Shown here in pieces: positions 37,195-58,930 of a DNA stretch of 64,000 nucleotides. The first letter of the stretch is position 1. Each line of letters starts with the position of its first letter. The notes under the pieces are model-generated. The model was not told the origin of the DNA. It searched no databases and was given only the letters and a program-made list of their open reading frames with translations. Source of the DNA: a virus; IMG/VR virus record IMGVR_UViG_3300045125_000031, positions 37,242-101,241 of that record; one strand, 5' to 3'. The translations under genes and the position numbers were made by a program.

Positions 37195-37434
37195 TTACCA
37201 CTTTTCTAGTGGACAGGTTGCATTTAATAATTTAGTTTTAGCAAACATAAAACATCCACACTTTTTACATTGCTTTGTCAGTTTAATTAGTTCTGGGCAA
37301 GATTGACAAATAGAATATCTTTCTTCCGCTACCTCTTTTGATGCCCATTCTGTTTCAGGGTTAACTAGATCCCATGGTCTAGTATCTCCAAGGCTTTCTT
37401 TATATTTTTGCCATACTGATTTTTCTTCTGACAT
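37195..37434 (-). CDS. Small zinc-ribbon protein, DUF6171-like
   Basis: 79 residues, with CQSCP, CKKCGCF and a final CPLEKW: six Cys arranged as CxxC...CxxCxC...C. A paralogue lies on the plus strand at 43686 (CNTCEHFNRRMVKCKKCGCF). The family is common in actinophages and of unknown role; DNA or protein binding is a guess. Confidence 0.6.
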   Translation of the reverse strand: MSEEKSVWQKYKESLGDTRPWDLVNPETEWASKEVAEERYSICQSCPELIKLTKQCKKCGCFMFAKTKLLNATCPLEKW

Positions 37435-45882: not shown

Positions 45883-45967
45883 TTGATAACCTTCTTCTTT
45901 TTTTATCTAATAATTCTATTCTATACTATGGGACTGACAAAAAGAGGGTCTATTTGCCAATGTCTGA

Positions 45968-45983
45968 TGTGACTTAGGTCACG
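45968..45983. promoter_or_regulatory. Crp/GlxR-like palindrome
   Basis: TGTGA-N6-TCACG overlapping the stop of the 39-residue membrane gene and upstream of the 45882 gene. A clear -35/-10 pair behind it is not obvious. Confidence 0.5.
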
Positions 45984-46098
45984 CTCCAAAGATGAAGCAT
46001 AGGGTAATCGCTAAGCCTACGCCTATAAAGGCTCCAATAGGTCCCGCTACATCTGCGTATGTGTCTAACCAGTCGATGATTGCTGTAAATGGATTCAT
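45979..46098 (-). CDS. Small membrane protein, 39 residues
   Basis: PFTAIIDWLDTYADVAGPIG leads into AFIGVGLAITLCFIFGA, one hydrophobic helix. Behind GAAAGGG. First gene of the leftward small-gene operon. Confidence 0.5.
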   Translation of the reverse strand: MNPFTAIIDWLDTYADVAGPIGAFIGVGLAITLCFIFGA

Positions 46099-46147
46099 TT
46101 TGTATCCCTTTCGTTTAGTAGTTATACTTTAACTATCTAATACTGGA

Positions 46148-46342
46148 AGTATAACAGATAGGACTGACAAAATCAACTCTCAGCACGGCGTGTCGTATGT
46201 GATTTAGCCCACATTGCCTAGGAAAAAGTTATCCACAGGTCAGACCATTCATGTGTGGATAACTTATGTGACCTTTATCACAAAAATAGTTTTCCGACAC
46301 GCCCGAAAAACAGGCAAAAATGTCAGACCCCTGTGTTAGACT
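46148..46342. promoter_or_regulatory. Divergent early promoter region
   Basis: Minus promoter TATACT 46148-46153, 17 nt, TTGATT 46171-46176. Plus -10 TAGACT 46337-46342 with a poor -35. Between them are Crp-like palindromes at 46198-46213 and a perfect TGTGA-N6-TCACA at 46267-46282, CCTAGG at 46217-46222, DnaA boxes in opposite orientation at 46229-46237 and 46254-46262, and GGCGTGTCG at 46187 (+) and 46295 (-). Confidence 0.65.
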
Positions 46343-46378
46343 TACAGAGTAAGATAAACAAAAGAAAGGTGGTCTAAA

Positions 46379-46559
46379 ATGACTACACTAACAAATAACA
46401 ATGTGCCGAGAGCACAACCCTATGAAATCTGCTATCTCAGAAATCGGAGATGAGCAATTTACTTTCTGTCAAGATTGTGAAAATAACATTGAGCGTTGGT
46501 ATGACGATACTGACCCTGAGCGTCTACCTATGTGGACAGATTGGAAAGTGTCTAAATGA
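46379..46559 (+). CDS. Small zinc-like protein, frameshifted once
   Basis: MTTLTNNNVPRAQP joins, after one shift, to EIGDEQFTFCQDCENNIERW and ends MWTDWKVSK. One CxxC. Behind AAGAAAGGTGG. First gene of a rightward operon of six coupled genes. Confidence 0.5.
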
Positions 46560-46723
46560 TAACACAATACATTGACCAAAACGAGTTTTATCTTATCAAA
46601 GATGAACAGCGTTTCTGTTGTGGCGAAAGCCAATTCCGCTATGTGTGTAAAGCGCATGGTGAGGCAATGGGTTGCTACTATTGCGAGTTTAACTATGATG
46701 AGAATTGCGAGGAACAACACTAA
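46556..46723 (+). CDS. Cys-rich protein, 55 residues
   Basis: DQNEFYLIKDEQRFCCGESQ to GCYYCEFNYDENCEEQH. CC and CxxC/His residues suggest a small zinc site. Overlaps both neighbours (ATGA, TAATG). Confidence 0.5.
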   Translation: MITQYIDQNEFYLIKDEQRFCCGESQFRYVCKAHGEAMGCYYCEFNYDENCEEQH

Positions 46724-46899
46724 TGATAACTCTTACACTTACCTCCTATAATGGCAATACTAAGAAAATGCCTTTCTATACAGAAAAGCAAGTGCGTAGT
46801 TTTATTTCTGCGCTACCCTCACACCTTAACAAAACAACTTCGCTAAAAGTAGAGTGTGACCTATTAGCAATTAGCGGAACAATTAGAGGAGAAAACTAA
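46723..46899 (+). CDS. Small protein, paralogue of 45449
   Basis: 58 residues from the ATG at 46723, chosen over the upstream in-frame ATG because of the TAATG coupling. ITLTLTSYNGNTKKMPFYTE, then KQVRSFISALPSHL. See the minus-strand copy at 45449-45645. Confidence 0.55.
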   Translation: MITLTLTSYNGNTKKMPFYTEKQVRSFISALPSHLNKTTSLKVECDLLAISGTIRGEN

Positions 46900-47060
46900 T
46901 GATAACTAACTATGAAATGACACAAGAGATAAAGTCTCTTGCTACTAAGCACTATGGTGACAATGACCTTGCATGGATGTGGGGATGTGCTCAAGCACTA
47001 CTTACCGCAACACAATTAGAGTTAATTCTTGGAATACTAAAAGATAAGGAGGTTCAGTAA
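46899..47060 (+). CDS. Small helical protein, 53 residues
   Basis: MITNYEMTQEIKSLATKHYG to LELILGILKDKEVQ. Hydrophobic and acidic helices, no motif recognised. Coupled by TAATG at both ends. Confidence 0.5.
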   Translation: MITNYEMTQEIKSLATKHYGDNDLAWMWGCAQALLTATQLELILGILKDKEVQ

Positions 47061-47197
47061 TGCAAAAGTTTATTTATTCTATTGCCGTTGAGGTAATTGC
47101 TGAGGATCAAGATGAAGCAACTTGGCGTATCTATAATACAAATCTAAGCGAACTAAAAACAGATTGCTTTGAGATTGAAATTGAGGAAATTGACTAA
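47060..47197 (+). CDS. Small acidic protein, 45 residues
   Basis: MQKFIYSIAVEVIAEDQDEA then TWRIYNTNLSELKTD. A ferredoxin-like beta-alpha pattern is possible. TAATG coupling on both sides; GGAGGTTCAGTA upstream. Confidence 0.5.
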   Translation: MQKFIYSIAVEVIAEDQDEATWRIYNTNLSELKTDCFEIEIEEID

Positions 47198-47283
47198 TGA
47201 AAACACTTCAAGAAAAATTAGACGAAGTTGCAAAAGAATTAGAGCCAATACTTTGGGATCTACTTGATGAAATTGAAAAATAA
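47197..47283 (+). CDS. Very small acidic protein, 28 residues
   Basis: TLQEKLDEVAKELEPILWDL, a single amphipathic helix. Last gene of the operon, coupled by TAATG. Confidence 0.45.
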   Translation: MKTLQEKLDEVAKELEPILWDLLDEIEK

Positions 47284-47297
47284 AAATAAATAAAAAG

Positions 47298-47324
47298 TTT
47301 TTTGCAAAATAAAATTGCAAAAAA
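47298..47324 (+). terminator. Intrinsic terminator
   Basis: TTTTTTGCAA and TTGCAAAAAA are a perfect 10-bp inverted repeat with a 7-nt loop, symmetric enough to act in both directions. It follows the last gene of the 46379 operon. Confidence 0.65.
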
Positions 47325-47326
47325 TT

Positions 47327-47449
47327 CCTAGGCAATTTTCCTAGCGTGTCGTCCACAGGCTGTGGATAACTAATGTGTTTAAGGTCACACTTTTATTTCC
47401 CCGAAATACGGCGTGTCGATTTGACTTTTTGAGATTTTTGTGTTAAACT
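47327..47449 (+). promoter_or_regulatory. Modular promoter cassette
   Basis: CCTAGG 47327-47332, DnaA box 47361-47369, Crp-like palindrome 47374-47389 (TGTGT-N6-TCACA), GGCGTGTCG 47410-47418, then TTGACT 47421-47426, 17 nt, TAAACT 47444-47449. The palindrome centre is about 75 nt upstream of the expected start. Confidence 0.75.
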
Positions 47450-47485
47450 ATCCATAGTTAAAAAATAAAGAAAGGATAACTAAAA

Positions 47486-47575
47486 ATGGACTATTTAGAC
47501 TATTTAGACGAAATCTACGAGGAATTAGTAGATGAATTCGGTCATGAAATCGAATCAAATTGTATCCATGAGTGA
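47486..47575 (+). CDS. Very small acidic protein, 29 residues
   Basis: MDYLDYLDEIYEELVDEFGH then EIESNCIHE, behind AAAGGATAAC. Its stop lies in the next Crp-like palindrome. Strong acidity could suggest a DNA mimic or peptide regulator, but this is speculation. Confidence 0.45.
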   Translation: MDYLDYLDEIYEELVDEFGHEIESNCIHE

Positions 47576-47656
47576 TACAAATCACACGCCCTGAGCGTCT
47601 CATTATTTGAGAATACTCGTGGGTAACTTGAAAAAATAACAAAAAAATGAAATAAT
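47571..47656 (+). promoter_or_regulatory. Crp-like palindrome and promoter
   Basis: AGTGA-N6-TCACA at 47571-47586, then TTGAAA 47628-47633, 17 nt, AATAAT 47651-47656. The centre of the palindrome is about 85 nt from the expected start. Confidence 0.5.
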
Positions 47657-47688
47657 AGAATTATTAGAAACTAAGAAAGGTGGCAACT

Positions 47689-47890
47689 ATGTCAGCCAAT
47701 TTATACACTATCGAAAACCTACTCGTAGGAAAAATCTATCGCTCAAAAATCTTTGACGGGTGAAATCGTTTCAGCAGAGCCACACCCTGAAGCCGTATGG
47801 TATGACGGCGCAGAGGCTTATCGTGTAGAGGTAAGAAATGAAAATGGCGGTTATACCTATCGCTCAGTAGCAGTAAAGGTTGGTGACTAA
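47689..47890 (+). CDS. Small beta (KOW/SH3-like) protein, frameshifted once
   Basis: SANLYTIENLLVGKIYRSK, then after a shift TGEIVSAEPHPEAVWYDGAE and YTYRSVAVKVGD. Layout matches the paralogous proteins at 51469 and 52255 (YxxGDLxTSxKxxVTGxI). Confidence 0.45.
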
Positions 47891-48006
47891 TGAAACTACA
47901 TGAATTTCAAGAATTAGTAAAGTCGCAACGCCAAGCGCAACAATTGACAAACTTAGAGAAAATCGCTAAAATTGTAGAAACAACAAAAGAAAAGGAAATT
48001 AACTAA
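47890..48006 (+). CDS. Small helical protein, 38 residues
   Basis: MKLHEFQELVKSQRQAQQLT then NLEKIAKIVETTKEKEIN, a basic amphipathic helix pair. TAATG coupling. Confidence 0.5.
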   Translation: MKLHEFQELVKSQRQAQQLTNLEKIAKIVETTKEKEIN

Positions 48007-48254
48007 TGACTACATACACAGACTACCCATTCAATGCTCAAGGAATAAATTTTATTTCACGAGTACATACAGACTCACCATTCGCACGACAGATTGCTGA
48101 TTTGCCAGCAGGCGTATTTGAAACAATGAACATTCAAGCAGTTTCAGATTTAATGAATTTATCAACTTTCACACTTGATGAAATTAAATCAGAATTGGAC
48201 CGAGTAAATGAGGGCGGAACTCATGCGTTTATTTTGTTAGGAGAAAATAACTAA
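48006..48254 (+). CDS. Uncharacterised protein, 82 residues
   Basis: MTTYTDYPFNAQGINFISRV, then LMNLSTFTLDEIKSELDRVN. Intact; no domain recognised. TAATG coupling at both ends. Confidence 0.5.
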   Translation: MTTYTDYPFNAQGINFISRVHTDSPFARQIADLPAGVFETMNIQAVSDLMNLSTFTLDEIKSELDRVNEGGTHAFILLGENN

Positions 48255-48446
48255 TGATGACACGAAAAGACTATGTCCAAACTTCAAACATTCTAAAAGG
48301 ATTTAGCGAGGAAATTCATCCCGCAGTCTTTGAGGATTTAGTAGAGGAATTCTCTCAATACTTTCAAGCAGATAACGAGCGATTTGATAAAGCAAAATTC
48401 GAAAAAGGCTTGCGGTGTTGATGAGTTAGGATTGATAGACGCATGA
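48254..48446 (+). CDS. Small helical protein, frameshifted near its end
   Basis: MMTRKDYVQTSNILKGFSEE, then VFEDLVEEFSQYFQADNERF. After a shift near 48410 it ends ACGVDELGLIDA. The layout resembles small actinophage proteins of unknown role. Confidence 0.5.
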
Positions 48447-48538
48447 ACAGATTTTTAACTTCCCTTGTTCAATTATTTTTGTGGCTTCCAATTTTATTTA
48501 TAATTTATTCAGAAATAAAATCAAGAAAACAAAACTAA
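48443..48538 (+). CDS. Single-pass membrane peptide, 31 residues
   Basis: FLTSLVQLFLWLPILFIIYS followed by a basic tail. Overlaps the previous stop (ATGA). Membrane location is predicted; function unknown. Confidence 0.45.
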   Translation: MNRFLTSLVQLFLWLPILFIIYSEIKSRKQN

Positions 48539-48544
48539 AAAAAT

Positions 48545-48696
48545 CCTGAGCATGATCTAAAACTGCTCAAATTTTTCCTAGGCCGTTTTCCACAAGGTCA
48601 GACTAAGTTATCCACAGGTCATTTAAGATGTGATCAAAAACACACCCAGATTTTACGGCGTGTCGTTTTGATTTTGTCAGTACAAAATGATAGACT
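48545..48696 (+). promoter_or_regulatory. Full modular cassette: hairpin, CCTAGG, DnaA box, palindrome, promoter
   Basis: Covarying hairpin GAGCA...TGCTC within 48545-48582, CCTAGG 48577-48582, DnaA box 48608-48616, Crp-like palindrome 48629-48644, GGCGTGTCG 48657-48665, TTGATT 48668-48673, 17 nt, TAGACT 48691-48696. This is the most complete example of the repeated intergenic design. Confidence 0.75.
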
Positions 48697-48727
48697 TACG
48701 GAGTAAGAATAAAGAAAGGAAACTCAA

Positions 48728-49226
48728 ATGGGTTTAGACATGTATCTTAGTGCTAAGAAGCACTTTGCCAAGATTAATTGGCAAGCATTACAGGCTAATG
48801 ATGAACTATCTTATAATTCACCTGAAGCCGTTTTCCGTCAATTTAATGATTTAATGGAATTGACACAATTATCCTAATGTTGCAACAGACATCTATGGAG
48901 CAACAGTAGAAGTCACTTGTGCTTATTGGCGCAAGGCTAATCAAATTCATGCTTGGTTTGTAAGAGAAATACAAAAGGGTAATGATAACTGCGGTGAATA
49001 CTATGTATCACAAGACCAACTAAAGCAATTGCGTGACCTATGCCAAAAGGCATTGGATAATCGTGACCCTAATCTATTGCCACCACAAGAAGGATTTTTC
49101 TTTGGTGGAACAGACATTGACGAATGGTATTGGCAAGACCTAAAGAATACTATTGCCCAATTGGACAGGATTTTTGCCCTGCCTCAATTGTCCGATTTGT
49201 CCTTTTCCTACAGTTCTTCATGGTAG
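48728..49226 (+). CDS. Phage protein of the GLDMYL type, frameshifted once
   Basis: MGLDMYLSAKKHFAKINWQA, then EVTCAYWRKANQIHAWFVRE, with PNLLPPQEGFFFGGTDIDEW and YYWQDLKNTI-like sequence near the end. The GLDMYL start is shared by many phage proteins of unknown function. About 165 residues; shift near 48870. Confidence 0.6.
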
Positions 49227-49239
49227 GGAGCGTGTCGGG

Positions 49240-49268
49240 TTGAAAATGTCAGCCCGACATGATAGGAT
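49240..49268 (+). promoter_or_regulatory. Promoter with GGCGTGTCG-type box
   Basis: AGCGTGTCG at 49229-49237, 2 nt, TTGAAA 49240-49245, 17 nt, TAGGAT 49263-49268. The 2-nt gap between box and -35 is the same as in the cassettes at 47410 and 48657. Confidence 0.65.
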
Positions 49269-49292
49269 TTATTTATAAAGAAAGGAAATAAT

Positions 49293-49586
49293 ATGAATAA
49301 GAAAAAAGCACTTGAAACTATTGCTAATTGTAAATTATGTAGTGGTATTGGCTATGAAGGTTGGGCGCATGGCGAGGATTTTGATATTGAGTGGTGTGAT
49401 TGTAACCCTGAACAACTAACACCAGAATTAGGATATACCTATCCTGAAAGAGATACTTGTATCGGTTGTAATGAAAATGGAGTATCGTGGGACGAACTCT
49501 ATTGCTACACTTGCTATCTTGCTAATAATGCTGAGATAGATTATACTCAGATTGACCAATTATTTATAACACAGGAGGCTAACTAA
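49293..49586 (+). CDS. Zinc-finger protein with DnaJ-like Cys motifs
   Basis: 97 residues. NCKLCSGIGYEGWAHGEDFD, EWCDCNPEQ, CIGCNENGVSWDELYCYTCY: four CxxC or CxC pairs, enough for two zinc ions. Behind AAAGGAAATAAT. Possibly a regulator or chaperone-type adaptor. Confidence 0.55.
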   Translation: MNKKKALETIANCKLCSGIGYEGWAHGEDFDIEWCDCNPEQLTPELGYTYPERDTCIGCNENGVSWDELYCYTCYLANNAEIDYTQIDQLFITQEAN

Positions 49587-49885
49587 TGGGAAGCAATATG
49601 GCAACAGAAATGGCAGATGGTACTCTAAGCGATTTAGGTATTAACTTAACTATTGAACAACAGATAGGGATACACCTATCGTCTAATCACTACCCGCCCG
49701 TACCCGCTATCATGATACCTGCTTGTATTGAGGCTATCGATGCCGTTAATGACGCAGGGCTGTGGGATTTAGATATTCAGATGCCTGAAGGCGTATCTTA
49801 TAAGGGTTTGACTACTGCCCCAGCATGGGCTATTATTGAACAACACCACCTAAATGCTTGGATTATCGAAAGAGAGGAATACTAA
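49586..49885 (+). CDS. Uncharacterised protein, 99 residues
   Basis: NMATEMADGTLSDLGINLTI, then HYPPVPAIMIPACIEAIDAV. The pattern (class I holdase-like, small molecule or partner unknown) is seen in other phages beside zinc-finger genes. TAATG coupling. Confidence 0.5.
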   Translation: MGSNMATEMADGTLSDLGINLTIEQQIGIHLSSNHYPPVPAIMIPACIEAIDAVNDAGLWDLDIQMPEGVSYKGLTTAPAWAIIEQHHLNAWIIEREEY

Positions 49886-49886
49886 G

Positions 49887-50102
49887 ATGGAATACTTATA
49901 CTCAGTAACTTGTACCTATGACGGAGAGGCTACACCTCGTTGGATTGGTAGATTTAGCGATTGTCTATCTGCCGTTGAAAGTTATCAAAAGTTTGTTGAT
50001 TGGGGAACTGCCGTAGAATACTCAACAATTAACTTATCAGAACCTAATGGCAAAATGCACACTAAGGTATTTAATAAAAATGGAAATGTAAGTATGCGTT
50101 AA
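49887..50102 (+). CDS. Uncharacterised protein, 71 residues
   Basis: MEYLYSVTCTYDGEATPRWI then GRFSDCLSAVESYQKFVDWG. The ATG at 49887 is preferred to the longer frame because it follows the previous stop by two bases. Confidence 0.5.
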   Translation: MEYLYSVTCTYDGEATPRWIGRFSDCLSAVESYQKFVDWGTAVEYSTINLSEPNGKMHTKVFNKNGNVSMR

Positions 50103-50333
50103 ATGTCTGATACAATGTTGAATATGGAAGACTTCACTGCTGTAGATATTCTCAATGCCGACCAGTTAGAAGTAGGAGATCTAATTGGTATCGGTGGAGA
50201 GATTGTAAAGGTGCTTGCAATTTCACCACTTCACTATGGATTTAATCTTGCTATAGAAAATAATTTTGGCGAAAAAGATTTTGTTGATGTAAGTGAAGAT
50301 GATAATTTTAAATTGTATATAGAAAACTTCTAA
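50103..50333 (+). CDS. Small beta protein, 76 residues
   Basis: LNADQLEVGDLIGIGGEIVK, then NFGEKDFVDVSEDDNFKLYI. A compact SH3- or Hedgehog/intein-like beta barrel is possible from VGDLIxIGGEIVKV. The start abuts the previous stop. Confidence 0.5.
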   Translation: MSDTMLNMEDFTAVDILNADQLEVGDLIGIGGEIVKVLAISPLHYGFNLAIENNFGEKDFVDVSEDDNFKLYIENF

Positions 50334-50340
50334 AAACCGG

Positions 50341-50397
50341 CCTAGGCAATTCGGACATATTCGGACATTTGCATTTTTGTTATTTTTATGATAAGAT
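50341..50397 (+). promoter_or_regulatory. CCTAGG site, TTCGGACAT pair and leaderless promoter
   Basis: CCTAGG 50341-50346. Two direct copies of TTCGGACAT at about 50350 and 50360. Then TTGCAT, 17 nt, TAAGAT 50392-50397, 6 nt to ATG 50404. Confidence 0.55.
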
Positions 50398-50403
50398 TAT
50401 TAC

Positions 50404-50535
50404 ATGATGAAAAAAACGGCTGAGGAATTACGCAGACTTATGGAATTACGCAGGTCTAATGCTGCAACTCCATTAAGGAACAAAAAAGCCTACTCCCGTA
50501 AAGTTAAACACAAAAAATTTGACTTATCAAAATAA
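50404..50535 (+). CDS. Basic small protein, leaderless, 43 residues
   Basis: MMKKTAEELRRLMELRRSNA then RNKKAYSRKVKHKKFDLSK. Rich in Lys and Arg, so it may bind nucleic acid. No ribosome site; the -10 ends 6 nt before the ATG. Confidence 0.55.
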   Translation: MMKKTAEELRRLMELRRSNAATPLRNKKAYSRKVKHKKFDLSK

Positions 50536-50567
50536 AAATGTTATAATAAAAATAAAGAAAGGACCCC

Positions 50568-51287
50568 ATGAAACTAAAACGTAGCATGGATAGGAAGGTA
50601 ACTAATGCTGTCTCACCCAACGGAAAAACCCCAACAATTGCCAACACTTTTGGATTGCCTGCTGGTAAGGCTTTCTCGTGCCCTGGTGCCACTAACACTT
50701 GTGAGAGCGTTTGCTACGCAGGAAAACTTGAAAGAGTCTACAAAGGCGTAAAGGCTGTCTTACTTCATAACTGGGAATTACTAAAAGACGCTGACCATGA
50801 CACTATGGAAGCATTGCTCATGGACATGATTGCAGACTTTAGAAAAGATTGTGAAAAGAAAGACGCTCCTATGCTATTCCGTATCCACTGGGACGGTGAT
50901 TTCTTTAGTGATGACTATGCATTTGCATGGAAGACACGTTATTCTTAATAATCCTGATGTAAAGTTCTGGGTCTATACTCGTGTAGCCTCTGCTGCAGAC
51001 ATACTCAAGGGAATTGATAATCTTAGCTTATACTATTCTACGGATAAAGACAACAAAGAGATTGCTATTAGTCTAAATAAGGAAAAGGGTATTCGTTTGG
51101 CATACCTTGCAGATACCTTCGCAATTGGGCAGGCTGATCTAAAGGCAATGATAGGCAAGGTAGGGGCTAAGTGCCCTGAGAATAAAAAGGCTATTCCCTA
51201 ATTGACAAAGAGGGGTCTGCTTGTGTAAAATGTAATTTATGTGTTAGCAACAAGGCTGACATAGTGTTTAGCGCAAAGAAAAAGTGA
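50568..51287 (+). CDS. GP88-like protein, frameshifted
   Basis: FGLPAGKAFSCPGATNTCES and VCYAGKL near the start, RIHWDGDFFSDDYAFAWK, VKFWVYTRV and a final AKCPENK, CVKCNLCVSNKAD. This order matches the phage gene-88-type family, whose Cys clusters look like metal or iron-sulfur ligands. Function unknown. Shifts at about 50930 and 51205. Confidence 0.55.
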
Positions 51288-51290
51288 TAA

Positions 51291-51359
51291 ATGAAAATCC
51301 TATTACTAATCTTGTGGGCTATCTTTATTGGGATAATTTTCTACCCACCCCTAAAGTGA
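51291..51359 (+). CDS. Single-pass membrane peptide, 22 residues
   Basis: ILLLILWAIFIGIIFYPPLK is almost wholly hydrophobic. Its stop lies inside a Crp-like palindrome. Coding status rests on close spacing to the previous gene. Confidence 0.4.
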   Translation: MKILLLILWAIFIGIIFYPPLK

Positions 51360-51440
51360 CCCAAATCACACGAGAGAAATCTCAAAATGTGAGAAAATGT
51401 CAAAAATAACTTGACACGGCAAGAAAAAATGTCATAATAG
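51355..51440 (+). promoter_or_regulatory. Crp-like palindrome and strong promoter
   Basis: AGTGA-N6-TCACA 51355-51370, then TTGACA 51411-51416, 18 nt, TAATAG 51435-51440. The palindrome centre is about 85 nt from the expected start. Confidence 0.65.
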
Positions 51441-51468
51441 TAGTATAACCAACAACAAAGGAGAAAAA

Positions 51469-51636
51469 ATGTCAGTAGCAACCGCAACTTACAAGGTAGG
51501 CGACCTATACACTTCACAGAAGTCAAAGGTCACAGGCACAATTACAGAAATCAAGCCAAATCAAGACGGCTCATCTGTTCGTGTCAAACTTGATGTAAAT
51601 GGCACACCACGCTGGACAACTTGGACAGCAAAGTAA
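51469..51636 (+). CDS. Small KOW/SH3-like protein, 55 residues
   Basis: TYKVGDLYTSQKSKVTGTIT then GSSVRVKLDVNGTPRWTTWT. Same length as the paralogue at 52255, each as a single gene behind its own promoter. Behind AAAGGAGAAAAA. Confidence 0.55.
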   Translation: MSVATATYKVGDLYTSQKSKVTGTITEIKPNQDGSSVRVKLDVNGTPRWTTWTAK

Positions 51637-51655
51637 TTCTCAATACGAGAAAAGT

Positions 51656-51712
51656 CCTGAGTATGACTACTAAAACTGCTCACTTGACTTTCTAACTAAA
51701 AAATGTTAGACT
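51656..51712 (+). promoter_or_regulatory. Covarying hairpin and promoter
   Basis: Hairpin copy GAGTA...TGCTC from 51656, then TTGACT 51684-51689, 17 nt, TAGACT 51707-51712. In this copy the hairpin nearly abuts the -35 and there is no CCTAGG. Confidence 0.65.
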
Positions 51713-51746
51713 TGACATAACCCAAACCCACTAAGAAAGGAAACAA

Positions 51747-52166
51747 ATGGCAAGAGGAAAAGCGATAAATGTAAAAATCGCTACAACTAAGGTTATCAAA
51801 GCCTTAGAAACTAAATTAGCAGAAATCAACAAAGATTTCGCAAATCAAGAAGCAAACGAGGCTAAGTATGATAAGGCTCGTAAAGCATGGGCTAAAGAAG
51901 TAGCAAAACTCGCAGTTGCTCAAATCGCAAAGGCTGAGAACTTCTCTGCTAATAAGCGATACAACAATGAAATCAACATTGACTTCAACATACCTGCTGG
52001 TCTTATTGACCTACCTGCTGAACCTGAGCGTGAGCATAAGACAATGAACGATTGGCAGTATCGTGAAATGGTTGAGGAAATTGAGAACGCAATTCGTATT
52101 CTCAAAATGACAGATGAGGAAGTAGTTTCTACTTCTACTTACAACGCTATCGCAAGATACCTATAA
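51747..52166 (+). CDS. Helical protein, 139 residues
   Basis: VIKALETKLAEINKDFANQE, then AKYDKARKAWAKEVAKLAVA, long coiled-coil-like helices, and a polar C-terminal helix with YREMVEEIENAIRILKM. Intact. Scaffold or nucleic-acid-associated role possible; not recognised. Confidence 0.55.
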   Translation: MARGKAINVKIATTKVIKALETKLAEINKDFANQEANEAKYDKARKAWAKEVAKLAVAQIAKAENFSANKRYNNEINIDFNIPAGLIDLPAEPEREHKTMNDWQYREMVEEIENAIRILKMTDEEVVSTSTYNAIARYL

Positions 52167-52190
52167 TCAAGATGGCGGGTGCGTGGGCTA

Positions 52191-52219
52191 TTGACAACAC
52201 CCGCCAAACTTGGTAAAAT
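52191..52219 (+). promoter_or_regulatory. Consensus-like promoter
   Basis: TTGACA 52191-52196, 17 nt, TAAAAT 52214-52219. No palindrome or hairpin is seen upstream. Confidence 0.7.
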
Positions 52220-52254
52220 AAATACAAGACCCAATAAATAGAAAGGCAAAACAA

Positions 52255-52422
52255 ATGACATTAGGCGGATACACTTACCAAATCGGTGATTTATTCACAA
52301 CAAGCAAAACAGGAGTTACAGGTCGCATTGAAAAGTTTGTTCCACAAACTCGTAATGTAACTAAGGTTATGCTTCGTTTAGCAAATAACCAAACTCGTTT
52401 CGCAATGGTAAAGACTTACTAA
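52255..52422 (+). CDS. Small KOW/SH3-like protein, 55 residues, paralogue of 51469
   Basis: GYTYQIGDLFTTSKTGVTGR then IEKFVPQTRNVTKVMLRLAN. Aligns with 51469 over YxxGDLxT and VTGxI. Its function may be to bind RNA or protein. Confidence 0.55.
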   Translation: MTLGGYTYQIGDLFTTSKTGVTGRIEKFVPQTRNVTKVMLRLANNQTRFAMVKTY

Positions 52423-52434
52423 GAAAGGAATAAC

Positions 52435-52638
52435 ATGCTAAAAAAGTTATTATTGGAATACAGGCACTATTTGTTTTTTTGGTTAGTTGCTGGTGTTGCA
52501 GGTGCAAACTGCGAAGCAGAACAATATCAGGGTGCTTGTGAAGCAGGAACTGGAATTGGTTTGTTTTTAATAATGATGTTATGGGCAATTGTAGATATTA
52601 TTCTATTGCTTATTTGGTTCATTACTCGTAAGAAATAA
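52435..52638 (+). CDS. Membrane protein, 67 residues
   Basis: Two hydrophobic helices (YLFFWLVAGVAGA and GLFLIMMLWAIVDIILLLIW), with CEAEQYQGACEAG between them: a loop with two Cys on one side. Start behind AAGAAAGGAATAAC. Function unknown, possibly holin-like. Confidence 0.5.
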   Translation: MLKKLLLEYRHYLFFWLVAGVAGANCEAEQYQGACEAGTGIGLFLIMMLWAIVDIILLLIWFITRKK

Positions 52639-52706
52639 CTTTCTTTCCTGATAAGCCCCGCTAAAAAATGAAGTGGCGAAAGTCCTTGCGGGTATTCCTG
52701 GAAAGA
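52639..52706 (+). ncRNA. Potential structured RNA after the membrane gene
   Basis: CTTTCC pairs with GGAAAG about 60 nt later, and CCCGC with GCGGG inside it, enclosing AAGTGGCGAAAG. The element sits between a stop codon and the covarying hairpin of the next cassette. It could be a terminator or structured 3' UTR; it has no U-tract. Confidence 0.35.
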
Positions 52707-52710
52707 TCAT

Positions 52711-52831
52711 CCTGAGCATGATGTAAAACTGCTCCACAAAAATCGCCTAGGCGGTGTGATTTAAATCATAGTCCACTATGTGAGATGATTTACGTACTTG
52801 ATTTGATTTTCCCCCATAAAAATGCTATGAT
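52711..52831 (+). promoter_or_regulatory. Modular cassette: hairpin, CCTAGG, palindrome, promoter
   Basis: Hairpin GAGCA...TGCTC at 52711-52735, CCTAGG 52746-52751, TGTGA-N6-TCATA 52755-52770, TTGATT 52803-52808, 17 nt, TATGAT 52826-52831. The palindrome centre is about 76 nt from the expected start. Confidence 0.7.
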
Positions 52832-52858
52832 TATATTATCTTAAGAAAGGATAATTAA

Positions 52859-53122
52859 ATGATTAGTACCGCAATAGCCCTACAGAATGTAACAAAAGAA
52901 GCAGTTCACGACGAAATAATAATGAATATGGCTCGTGCCATTTATCACACTAAAGACGGCATGTCTCCAGATGAGTTTGCCCAAGCCTTATATATGTATT
53001 CAGGAACGTTGGCTGCTTTAACAACTACATTAGTAACAAGTGTATTATTGACAGAAGCAGAAATAGATGATATGGTTAATACAATTAAAGAAATGGAAAC
53101 AATGGGAAAGGATGTTGAATAA
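52859..53122 (+). CDS. Uncharacterised helical protein, 87 residues
   Basis: STAIALQNVTKEAVHDEIIM, MARAIYHTKDGMSPDEFAQA, then TLAALTTTLVTSVLL. Mixed hydrophobic helices, perhaps membrane-peripheral. Behind AAAGGATAATTAA. Confidence 0.5.
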   Translation: MISTAIALQNVTKEAVHDEIIMNMARAIYHTKDGMSPDEFAQALYMYSGTLAALTTTLVTSVLLTEAEIDDMVNTIKEMETMGKDVE

Positions 53123-53550
53123 TGGAAACTCCATTTAATGCAACAATTAAAGAATATGTAGCAACAGAAGACTTTCTAAAGTCAGAAATTAAAAAGAAGG
53201 ATGAGCGAATCAAGCAACTTGAGGAGCATACTTCTGTAGTAACTCAGCGTTCATACACTGAATCTGCAGAGCGCAATCGCATGCGTAATGAAATGCAGGA
53301 ATGGACCCTGGAGCAATTGGATGAAGATTCAATCACTGAATCACAGGCAGAAGAAATTGCAAGCATTTGTGGTTTTGAATTAGCCAAGGAATTTGAGGCT
53401 GAGGTAACCGTCCAGTACTCAATTACAATTAATGCACGTAATGAAGAGCAGGCACAGAATGCAATCTATGATATTGATTTTGATTCAGTCTCATACAACG
53501 GCGATGCAATTACCTATTTGTCAGGCAGTGTCGACAGAATAGAAATTTAA
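53122..53550 (+). CDS. Coiled-coil protein with beta C-terminus, 142 residues
   Basis: EDFLKSEIKKKDERIKQLEE is a coiled coil. The C-terminal VTVQYSITINARNEEQAQNA, then YLSGSVDRIEI, is a ferredoxin-like or small beta module. TAATG coupling. Confidence 0.5.
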   Translation: METPFNATIKEYVATEDFLKSEIKKKDERIKQLEEHTSVVTQRSYTESAERNRMRNEMQEWTLEQLDEDSITESQAEEIASICGFELAKEFEAEVTVQYSITINARNEEQAQNAIYDIDFDSVSYNGDAITYLSGSVDRIEI

Positions 53551-53786
53551 AAATTTGCAGGGTTCATGAAAGGCCCTGCAATGTATACGGATCCTATCTT
53601 TCATCCTTTCTTAAATAGGACCGTAAGGGACCTGAGCACGTCCATGTAAACTGCTTTATAAATTTCCTAGGCACCTAGCCCGCAAAAATTCAAAATGTCA
53701 AGTATTTAAGATGTGTTTTACGTCACGTCCAATTTATCCCCTTTTACTAAGCCTATTTGACTTTTGTCGGTTGTTTATGCTAAGAT
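53551..53786 (+). promoter_or_regulatory. Terminator-like hairpin and modular cassette
   Basis: TTGCAGGG...CCCTGCAA (about 53564-53590) is a perfect 8-bp stem without a U-run. A CCTAT...ATAGG stem follows. Then the covarying hairpin copy GAGCA...TGCTT from 53631, CCTAGG 53666-53671, TGTGT-N6-TCACG 53712-53727, TTGACT 53757-53762, 18 nt, TAAGAT 53781-53786. Confidence 0.65.
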
Positions 53787-53816
53787 TGTTAAAACACTTA
53801 CAGAAAGGACAAAATA

Positions 53817-54833
53817 ATGGCGCATGAATTAGAAACGCAAAATGGCGTTGCTTCTTTCGCATCATTCCGTGAGCCTGCTTGGCATGGTCTTGGCACAGTA
53901 TTCACGGAAGAAAAAACAACAGCAGAAATGTTATCTGCTGCTAACCTAAACAATTGGAATGTTCGTCTTGAGGACGTAAATGTTCCATCTCACTTATCAT
54001 CAGATAAGAATTATCAATACGTTATCCGTACTAACCCTACAGATAATACACAGACCGACATTCTTGGTGTTGTCGGTGAGCGTTACCATGTTTTACAGAA
54101 TGAAGATTTATTCTCATTCGGTGATAACATTCTTGACGGCGGAGGTCGTTGGGAAACGGCTGGCTCTATTCGTGGAGGTCGTGTCGTATTCGGTTCTCTT
54201 GCTCTTGAGCGTGAGACAATTCTTGACCCTAATGGTGTTGCCGATAAGGTAAAAACTTATTTGCTTATCAACACATCACATGATGGTTCTATCGCTATTC
54301 AAGCAAGCATAACACCTGTTCGTGTTGTGTGCGCTAATACTCTTAACCTTGCTTTAGGTTCTAAGCGTGGAAAAAATGCTATCAAGCAGACATTCAAGAT
54401 ACGCCACACGCAGACCGCAAGTGGTAAGGTACAAGTTGCTCGTGAGACTCTTGGTCTTGCTAATAAGTACATGGACGCTTTTGATGTTATGGCTAAGGCT
54501 ATGATTGAGAAAGAAATCACAGCGCAACAGTTCAATGACATTGTGCTTGCTGCTTATCCAAAGCCTGATGAAGAAAAAAAGGGCGCACTTACTCGTTGGA
54601 CTAATAAGGTTGATGTTATCAATGACATCTACACAGGTGAGTTCAATGGAATGATTGCGGGTAACGCATGGGGTGCTTTCAATGCACTAACTGAACGCCT
54701 TGACTGGCATCGTTCTGCTCGTGGTGGAAATACTGAGGCAATGCTTGCTGCTGCTTCTGGTTTTGACCCATCAATTACAGCAGAAAAAAATCGTTTGCTA
54801 AGTATTGTAAAAAATACTTTAGCGATTGCATAA
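53817..54833 (+). CDS. DUF932 / phage-plasmid TIGR03299-like protein
   Basis: Intact, 338 residues. EPAWHGLGTVFTEEKTTAEM, GERYHVLQNEDLFSFGDNIL and TPVRVVCANTLNLALG are the family landmarks. Widespread in actinophages and plasmids; exact function unknown, possibly DNA-replication or host takeover. Start behind AGAAAGGACAAAATA. Confidence 0.75.
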   Translation: MAHELETQNGVASFASFREPAWHGLGTVFTEEKTTAEMLSAANLNNWNVRLEDVNVPSHLSSDKNYQYVIRTNPTDNTQTDILGVVGERYHVLQNEDLFSFGDNILDGGGRWETAGSIRGGRVVFGSLALERETILDPNGVADKVKTYLLINTSHDGSIAIQASITPVRVVCANTLNLALGSKRGKNAIKQTFKIRHTQTASGKVQVARETLGLANKYMDAFDVMAKAMIEKEITAQQFNDIVLAAYPKPDEEKKGALTRWTNKVDVINDIYTGEFNGMIAGNAWGAFNALTERLDWHRSARGGNTEAMLAAASGFDPSITAEKNRLLSIVKNTLAIA

Positions 54834-54845
54834 GTAATCGCAACT

Positions 54846-55012
54846 CCTGAACATGAGTATAAACTGTTCACTTTTTTATTTTGCAATTGCAGATCATAAA
54901 ATAAAAATAAAAAATTTGCTAGATAAACCAAAATCCACACAAAACGGACATTGTATTTTTGATTTTATTTTATTACGTAGCACTTGATTTTTTTGCTGGA
55001 TTGTGGGACAAT
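54846..55012 (+). promoter_or_regulatory. Covarying hairpin and leaderless promoter
   Basis: Hairpin copy GAACA...TGTTC (54846-54872), in which two stem positions changed together. Further down TTGATT 54984-54989, 17 nt, GACAAT 55007-55012, 6 nt to ATG 55019. Confidence 0.6.
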
Positions 55013-57013: not shown

Positions 57014-57029
57014 TGTGACGACGGTCACT
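57014..57029. promoter_or_regulatory. Crp-like palindrome downstream of an operon
   Basis: TGTGA-N6-TCACT just after the stop at 56999. No -35/-10 pair is evident between it and the terminator, so it may be a chance match or a remnant. Confidence 0.35.
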
Positions 57030-57383: not shown

Positions 57384-57651
57384 GTGTGGTATTTTAGGTC
57401 AGTTCTGGTTTGAATACAGAGATGACGAAAAACTTGGAGAGTTCATCTCCTACAACGACATTGGCTTGCCTTTGTCATGGTTTATTTCTACAGGGGTAGT
57501 AACACCAAACCCTATTGCTGAAGACTATGTAAATGAAACCTTTGCGTTATTCTTGGCAGCATTATCGCTAACCGAAGATGATGTTGATGGTTTGGATAAT
57601 CTCAATGATGTCCTTGAGGTTGTTGAATCTAATTTAGAGGACGAAGAGTAA
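57361..57651 (+). CDS. Uncharacterised acidic protein, 96 residues
   Basis: MSIDFTDKCGILGQFWFEYR, LPLSWFISTGVVTPNPIAED. The pattern is known from other actinophage proteins of unknown function. Overlaps the previous gene by 23 bases. Confidence 0.55.
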   Translation: MSIDFTDKCGILGQFWFEYRDDEKLGEFISYNDIGLPLSWFISTGVVTPNPIAEDYVNETFALFLAALSLTEDDVDGLDNLNDVLEVVESNLEDEE

Positions 57652-57918
57652 AAATCTCAGTCCCCCTGCGGGGGCTGCCTAGATCATCATTTAGCATATA
57701 ACAAACCATCAAACCAAATTTGCAAATAGATTACGAACCATTGTAAATTTTTCCCAGAAAGATTACGATCCAAACCATATTTTCCCCAAACCTTATATCA
57801 TAATATTTTTGGTTTGTCAAACCATAGTATCCTAGTGTATAGTTGTATATAGTACTAGGGGTATTACGAAGAGTCTTTTCTATTCCCCGCCGTTTTTAGG
57901 CGGGTATCAAACCAGTGT

Positions 57919-57924
57919 TATAAT
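57919..57924 (+). promoter_or_regulatory. Leaderless extended -10 promoter
   Basis: TG, one base, TATAAT (57919-57924), 6 nt to ATG 57931. No good -35, as expected for an extended -10. Confidence 0.6.
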
Positions 57925-57930
57925 GGTTAT

Positions 57931-58224
57931 ATGAGTCCCCGTCACTTTTCTAAGATGTATCAAAACAAAAACCAACACAGACATGATCAGCAATCTGATT
58001 GGGACTCCTTTACGAAAGACATGACGGTTTTGACGGGTATGTTATATACAATTGCTAAGTGGCCTATCAAACCATTCATCCCTGCATTCTATAAAACAGC
58101 CAAGGAGTATCAAAAGGATTACGAACCTATCTATAATGCTCCACAGGATTGTCCTTGTGGATGCCCGCCCAATAATTGCACCTGCTGCTGCTCAAAGGCA
58201 GAGGGCTGCGGGCACCGCAAATAA
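57931..58224 (+). CDS. Cys-rich small protein within the iteron array
   Basis: 97 residues. A charged N-terminus, a middle YTIAKWPIKPFIPAFYKTAK and a tail CPCGCPPNNCTCCCSKAEGC followed by GHRK, with nine Cys in 22 residues. Two repeat motifs (CAAACCAT and ATTACGAAC) lie inside the coding part. Zinc or disulfide protein; could act at the neighbouring origin. Confidence 0.5.
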   Translation: MSPRHFSKMYQNKNQHRHDQQSDWDSFTKDMTVLTGMLYTIAKWPIKPFIPAFYKTAKEYQKDYEPIYNAPQDCPCGCPPNNCTCCCSKAEGCGHRK

Positions 58225-58602
58225 CGGCGGGTATAAAAAGATTACGATCATACCCTAATTCCCCCTATATATACATATCAAACCATTTTTCCTGGTTTTA
58301 AAACATTTTTAAAAGTATTACGAACTTTCTGGAATTTTTCCCAGAAATTTGGCAATTTTCCTGCATAAAAGATTACGAAGATACTTGACAAACCATGGTT
58401 TTGCAGATATAATGCCCAAACCTTTATATAATGGTTTGACAGATATGATGGTTTGTGGTATAAGATGGCATGATGGTTTGATGGATATATGGTTTTGTGG
58501 TTTGGGATTACGAACGCCATCGTTAAAAGCGTTCCATACACCACTATCCTCCACTTTACTCCACTTTAACCCTATCCAATAATATAATCAGTAAGATTTA
58601 TC

Positions 58603-58654
58603 TGTGGATAACTTGTGGATAACTATACCAAACCATCTATCAACCTGTGGATAA
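58603..58654 (+). promoter_or_regulatory. Three consensus DnaA boxes
   Basis: TGTGGATAA at 58603-58611, 58614-58622 and 58646-58654, all the same strand. The first two are 11 bp apart. A fourth lies inside the next gene (58803-58811). Confidence 0.75.
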
Positions 58655-58687
58655 CTTCGACGGTATATAAACCAATTGACCATATGC

Positions 58688-58693
58688 TACAAT
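58688..58693 (+). promoter_or_regulatory. Leaderless extended -10 promoter
   Basis: TG, one base, TACAAT (58688-58693), 6 nt to ATG 58700. Confidence 0.55.
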
Positions 58694-58699
58694 GAATAT

Positions 58700-58930
58700 A
58701 TGTGGTGGTCATGGGTATTAGCAGTTATAGGCGTAGCAGGTATTTACTTTGTTGGTCGTAAGGACAAATGGGGATGGTTTGTCTTATTGTTCAACGAATG
58801 CCTGTGGATAACTTATGCTCTTATAACAAACCAGTATGGTTTTATATTCTCAGCCTTAGCCTATGCAGCCGTATATATCAGATCATATATCCATTGGTCT
58901 AAAGAACCAGTTAATGAGATACCTCTATAG
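58700..58930 (+). CDS. Membrane protein, leaderless, 76 residues
   Basis: Two to three hydrophobic segments (WSWVLAVIGVAGIYFVGRKD; WGWFVLLFNECLWITYALI; YGFIFSALAYAAVYI). The start at 58700 fits the -10 spacing better than an upstream TTG. It resembles a fragment of PnuC-type permease helices, but this is a weak likeness. Confidence 0.55.
   Translation: MWWSWVLAVIGVAGIYFVGRKDKWGWFVLLFNECLWITYALITNQYGFIFSALAYAAVYIRSYIHWSKEPVNEIPL

Follow-up and report, generated by a model that had tools for sequence, protein, structure and literature searches.

A row of palindromes of the Crp/GlxR type (TGTGA-N6-TCACA) was found at 45.9-54 kb of a 64,000-bp stretch of viral DNA, hereafter the window, which is part of the IMG/VR virus record IMGVR_UViG_3300045125_000031 (positions 37,242 to 101,241; record length 101,241 bp, GC content 36.4%). 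Such rows are carried by a large family of freshwater actinobacterial viruses, among which they form a focused, promoter-linked array of host-regulator-type sites that is conserved among the phages. The block of small genes at 46-54 kb of the window is probably driven by class-I phage promoters that depend on GlxR, the Crp-family regulator of the host. This interpretation was adopted because the palindromes are enriched, lie outside open reading frames (ORFs), are confined to one module, are phased to promoters and have Crp-like half-sites, and because GlxR occurs in the likely host order, no Crp was found in the phages and actinophage marks are present.

An earlier reading made from the letters of the window alone (the sequence-only reading) had claimed nine such palindromes, and all of them were recovered. 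They are listed below with the promoters that we assigned to them, where d is the distance in bp between the centre of the site and the base at which the -10 hexamer begins.

45968-45983, minus strand: Crp-like site, 1 mismatch; minus-strand -10-like TAGAAT at 45918-45923, d = 52.5, poor -35
46198-46213, minus strand: Crp-like site, 1 mismatch; minus-strand TTGATT-17-TATACT, -10 at 46148-46153, d = 52.5
46267-46282, plus strand: perfect Crp site; -10 TAGACT at 46337-46342, d = 62.5, weak -35
47374-47389, plus strand: Crp-like site, 1 mismatch; TTGACT (47421)-17-TAAACT (47444), d = 62.5
47571-47586, plus strand: Crp-like site, 1 mismatch; promoter poorly defined, poor -35, TAATAG at 47653, d about 74.5
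48629-48644, plus strand: Crp-like site, 1 mismatch; TTGATT-17-TAGACT (48691), d = 54.5
51355-51370, plus strand: Crp-like site, 1 mismatch; TTGACA at 51411, CATAAT at 51433 or TAATAG at 51435, d = 70.5-72.5
52755-52770, plus strand: Crp-like site, 1 mismatch; TTGATT (52803)-17-TATGAT (52826), d = 63.5
53712-53727, plus strand: Crp-like site, 2 mismatches; TTGACT (53757)-18-TAAGAT (53781), d = 61.5, upstream of the DUF932 gene

Some details of the earlier reading had to be corrected, since the sites at 45968 and 46198 fit best to minus-strand promoters, 45968, 46267, and 47571 have poor -35 elements, and the site at 52934 lies within a gene. A tenth site at 57014, already called doubtful, is still so. 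Assuming that the -10 hexamer begins at -12, the site centres, which had been placed 64-85 nt upstream of the start, now fall between about -64 and -87.

Over the whole window the motif was not above chance, with 32 sites of at most two mismatches against 40 expected. Twelve sites had at most one mismatch, and eight of these lay within 45.9-54 kb, where 0.34 were expected (positions 45900-54000; maximum of 2 in 500 shuffles) and where each of 29 permuted half-site palindromes occurred 0-2 times. The signal in the window is a cluster at 45.9-54 kb and not a window-wide enrichment.

Using the DUF932 protein of the window as the query, 80 IMG/VR relatives were fetched, and the conservation counts refer to 61 dereplicated relative loci comprising 1.03 Mb in all. 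These contained 262 perfect palindromes (median of 1.5 for permuted half-sites), all with the spacer of 6, while any other spacer gave 0-5. When coding and intergenic DNA of the relatives were compared, 246 of the 262 sites (94%) lay outside ORFs of at least 80 amino acids, although ORFs of this size make up 51% of the sequence. The half-sites showed the preference TGTGA[T/C]..[A/G]TCACA, which fits Crp, and the flanks were not conserved, so that the sites are not one copied repeat. In the whole records whose positions were listed, nearly all perfect sites fell into one module, with up to nine per phage. Among genomes of the phylum as a whole, 218 of 396 had at least one perfect site. The observation of the sequence-only reading was thereby confirmed, and it is stronger in the relatives than in one window.

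The Crp sites are accompanied by DnaA boxes, which the sequence-only reading had not mentioned. The box TTATCCACA occurred 266 times in the 61 loci, compared with a median of 10 for permuted 9-mers, and 126 of the 266 copies were located within -70 to +60 bp of a Crp site, a zone that makes up about 7% of the sequence. The gaps between box and site fell into clusters around 13 and 34 bp, which differ by about two helical turns. The boxes in the controlled region of the window are as follows.

46229-46237, plus strand: DnaA box TTATCCACA, between the divergent sites 46198 and 46267
46254-46262, minus strand: DnaA box, 4 bp upstream of site 46267
47361-47369, minus strand: DnaA box, 4 bp upstream of site 47374
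48608-48616, plus strand: DnaA box, 12 bp upstream of site 48629

When 2.9 million viral contigs (viral_contigs) were scanned for a DnaA box together with a Crp site, at least 120 stretches were returned; among the 80 loci listed, 53 had DUF932 or GP88 and 78 had a GC content of 34-42%. The elements CCTAGG, mostly 50-70 bp upstream of a Crp site centre, and GCGTGTCG recur in the same spacers (46210-53680 in the window). Outside the array, positions 57650-58811 of the window, a likely replication origin, contain four minus-strand DnaA boxes (58603, 58614, 58646, 58803; 11 bp between the first and the second) that adjoin six GATTACGA repeats (57729-58506) and repeated AAACCAT in A+T-rich DNA. 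Closely spaced DnaA boxes were also seen in two relatives, designated G005 and G008.

The arrangement of the sites relative to promoters was analysed by scoring sigma70-type promoters downstream of each site. A promoter passed the score at 210 of 532 sites, and part of the array is therefore without an assigned promoter. The distances from site centre to -10 peaked at 41.5, about 52 (52.5), 62.5, and 72.5-73.5 bp, that is, at whole helical turns. The peaks were repeated in a second locus set, fetched by the DnaA-Crp pattern with overlapping contigs excluded as far as visible, and also by a scan for -10-like hexamers that did not require a -35 element. With DnaA boxes or CCTAGG as anchors in the same sequences, no phase to the -10 was obtained. 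Within one ortholog group, ten phages had a distance of 51.5 in front of the same gene for which ten others had one of 73.5, and another group had 52.5, 62.5, and 72.5. When each combination of group and distance was counted once, the Rayleigh test gave p = 1.8e-4 for all distances and about 1e-7 for those up to 75 bp, the latter value being optimistic because the 75-bp cut and the 10.5 period were chosen after the data had been seen; with one value per ortholog group, p was 1e-3. The sites thus lie upstream of the -35 element on one helix face, at distances that differ by whole turns, in two locus sets. Class-I activators need such a position, as established for E. coli CRP. The class-I geometry proposed by the sequence-only reading is therefore supported, and the helical phasing in the relatives strengthens it.

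The closest named phages are Streptomyces phages of the Stanwilliamsviridae, with about 51% amino acid identity in DUF932 and up to 55% in the capsid protease over half its length. The phage of the window appears to be a Stanwilliamsviridae-like actinophage, as its nearest capsid protease and DUF932 homologues belong to that family and WhiB, regarded as an actinophage mark (PMC10202952), is encoded by three relatives (G005, G006, and G008). The PstS protein of G008 shared 50-57% identity over nearly its full length with many PstS proteins of Nanopelagicales and about 37-47% with others of that order, while other sampled actinobacteria gave only partial matches of at most 45%. WhiB and this PstS, taken from relatives and not from the window's own record, point indirectly to freshwater Nanopelagicales (acI) as the hosts. 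GlxR was found in 92 of 101 Nanopelagicales genomes, usually as the only strong match; it aligns with CRP of Mycobacterium tuberculosis over the full length and has its recognition helix SRETVNKAL and the phosphate-binding cassette. An actinobacterial host with GlxR, as the sequence-only reading had assumed, is thus supported by WhiB, PstS, capsid kinship, and the distribution of GlxR. The same DnaA box as in the phages was located close to the putative origin in sampled Nanopelagicales genomes.

The palindromes would then be predicted binding sites of the host GlxR. GlxR, occupying one helix face at about 53-85 bp upstream of the transcription start, would recruit the host RNA polymerase to sigma70-type phage promoters, and this class-I activation would drive the block of small genes at 46-54 kb. 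Where DnaA boxes adjoin a site, host DnaA would probably modulate the same promoters. The genes of the block are probably early, as judged solely by the relatedness of this region to the genome ends of Streptomyces phages.

Several results weigh against a role of host GlxR. The assignment of the host order depends on WhiB and on a single gene acquired by one relative. In a search confined to class III, no class III adenylate cyclase was found in the 101 Nanopelagicales genomes, and GlxR of Corynebacterium glutamicum, which binds DNA about 100-fold more tightly with cyclic AMP (cAMP; PMC7026483), is tight only with this ligand. In 2 × 400 kb from two Nanopelagicales genomes, no noncoding site with at most one mismatch was present and noncoding sites with at most two mismatches were as frequent as permutations, while perfect copies were rare in the 101 genomes (0-3 per genome). 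As the palindrome is unenriched and rare in these genomes, the host GlxR may prefer another sequence. Finally, the phase is about 2 bp off that of E. coli lac, an offset that may be explained by uncertain start sites. A few plausible sites were seen in one genome (G021). An apparent avoidance of the palindrome by the hosts (summed counts of 14 versus 38 for the control) was discounted, as TGA stops are present in the palindrome but absent from the control. Candidate autoregulatory TGTAA-N6-TTACA sequences near several host glxR genes were dropped because they fell within neighbouring coding sequence in the one locus analysed in detail.

The sequence-only reading had further linked the sites to the cAMP or carbon state of the host. 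While its Crp/GlxR operators, class-I geometry, and actinobacterial GlxR host stood, this link was not supported, given that no class III cyclase was found in 101 genomes and that use of the palindrome was not visible in two sampled host genomes. A cyclase supplied by the phage was rejected, with none of class III in 16 phage records. CRP of M. tuberculosis has similar DNA affinity with and without cAMP (PMC8026907), and the host GlxR may work without a ligand, or with a nucleotide taken up from outside or synthesised by a different enzyme. Its cAMP-pocket residues, compared with those of M. tuberculosis CRP, are apparently intact, although no class III cyclase was found in the order.

A tentative elaboration, for which we claim a modest chance at most, is that host GlxR, with or without a ligand, and host DnaA jointly gate phage expression at combined promoters. 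The virus would thereby read the replication state of the host, and the host genomes would seem to have largely abandoned the GlxR palindrome.

The binder could instead be encoded by the phage. Phage-encoded Crp was rejected, since no cyclic-nucleotide-binding (cNMP-binding) domain was found in 17 records and no Crp helix-turn-helix (HTH) in the window's record. An activator of unrecognised fold, whose Crp-like specificity would make the likeness to GlxR sites convergent, is unlikely, though it fares best among the rival explanations: most of the small genes in the region belong to no known family, the host itself seems not to use the palindrome, and G008 has a marginal HTH_40 match (E = 0.007). 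Against it, sequence and N6 spacing are the exact Crp consensus, and Pfam and PHROGs scans of most ORFs of G008 showed no palindrome-binding regulator among the families listed, where weak matches could be hidden. Lower still we place repression, in which the sites would silence the block by temperate-like control or host-mediated repression. Crp-family proteins can repress, and many sites per module are reminiscent of multi-operator repression; the sites, however, lie upstream of the -35 element with whole-turn phasing and not over the promoter, and no repressor or integrase was recognised among the families seen. It is very improbable that the array is a decoy titrating GlxR off host promoters, as promoter phasing would be needless for that purpose, even though a phage may carry up to nine perfect sites, while genomes of the likely host order have 0-3 each. 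Chance or inheritance of an ancestral repeat, with regular distances due to shared descent, has next to no likelihood, because although the relatives share ancestry and raw counts overstate their independence, the flanks are unconserved, distances jump by whole turns within ortholog groups, the phase remains with ortholog groups counted once, and other elements of the same spacers are unphased.

Up to about 45 kb of the window, structural genes occupy the minus strand, and the site array mostly serves the plus strand. Two recognisable genes of the controlled block are given below.

50568-50948, plus strand: GP88 family gene (PF17338, E = 8.6e-32), inside the controlled block, probably frameshifted in this record
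53817-54833, plus strand: DUF932 gene, the last large gene of the controlled block

Frameshift-like genes were seen at about 47753, 48870, 50948, and elsewhere, with GP88 matching half its profile and ribonucleotide reductase in pieces; these are probably sequencing errors, as G008 reads through. Several oxygenase-like genes and one GSHPx gene are present in the window, and G008 has nine matches to 2OG-Fe(II) oxygenase as well as host-like genes (L145-L150) for PstS, Hsp20, a short-chain dehydrogenase, a glutathione peroxidase-like protein, and a class II ribonucleotide reductase. Bacterial genome contigs searched with DUF932 yielded no relative of the phage.

At gene ends in the controlled block, a strand-specific hairpin element was noticed (CTGAGCA-[TA]GA...TAAAA-CTGCTC), with the following copies in the window.

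48546-48567: hairpin element
51657-51680: hairpin element
52712-52733: hairpin element
53632-53655: hairpin element
about 54847-54869: hairpin element

A pattern scan counted 241 copies in the 61 loci (median of 0 for permuted patterns), and a stricter stem-based scan counted 163, all on the gene strand, with the stems GAGCA/TGCTC, GAGTA/TGCTC, and GAACA/TGTTC. The folding z-scores of single copies were mostly unremarkable, no Rfam match reached the gathering score, and tRNA was the sole match of the Rfam scan. The element is possibly a new RNA element or a terminator.

If the GlxR interpretation is true, a large virus group of very abundant freshwater bacteria has made a gene block dependent on one host regulator, with a geometry so regular that the mode of activation is readable from sequence. 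The array would offer a direct route to what GlxR senses in streamlined bacteria in which no class III adenylate cyclase was found. The DnaA box plus Crp site would also serve as a sequence mark for finding Nanopelagicales phages, the 80 loci listed being almost only low-GC contigs of this type.

Like the class I CRP promoters of E. coli (lac type), the phage promoters have a symmetric TGTGA-N6-TCACA upstream of the -35 element at distances one helical turn apart, but their starts are predicted, their phase deviates from lac as described above, and the 41.5-bp class (centre at about -53.5) is frequent. To our knowledge, this last position is not a usual one for E. coli class I CRP. The palindrome is of the same class as in the GlxR regulon of Corynebacterium and the CRP regulon of M. 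tuberculosis (PMC7026483, PMC8026907), from which the present case differs in that the sites are on phages, with no such regulon in the sampled likely-host genomes and no class III cyclase found. Two Streptomyces phages, Angela by its DUF932 and Tomas by its capsid maturation protease, are nearest among the named phages. They share the small-gene block around DUF932, but have genomes of about 130 kb with a GC content near 50% and no Crp sites in the first 12 kb. No earlier report of Crp/GlxR site arrays in phages was found in the literature searched. The closest precedent is the arrays of CtrA-binding sites in phages of Alphaproteobacteria, where binding of host CtrA and its control over phage genes were demonstrated (Mascolo et al., 2022, PMC9437464). 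While the present array, predicted from sequence, involves Crp/GlxR, another host phylum, whole-turn class-I phasing, and adjoining DnaA boxes, the two systems have in common dense, focused sites for a host master regulator in the promoter regions of many phages.

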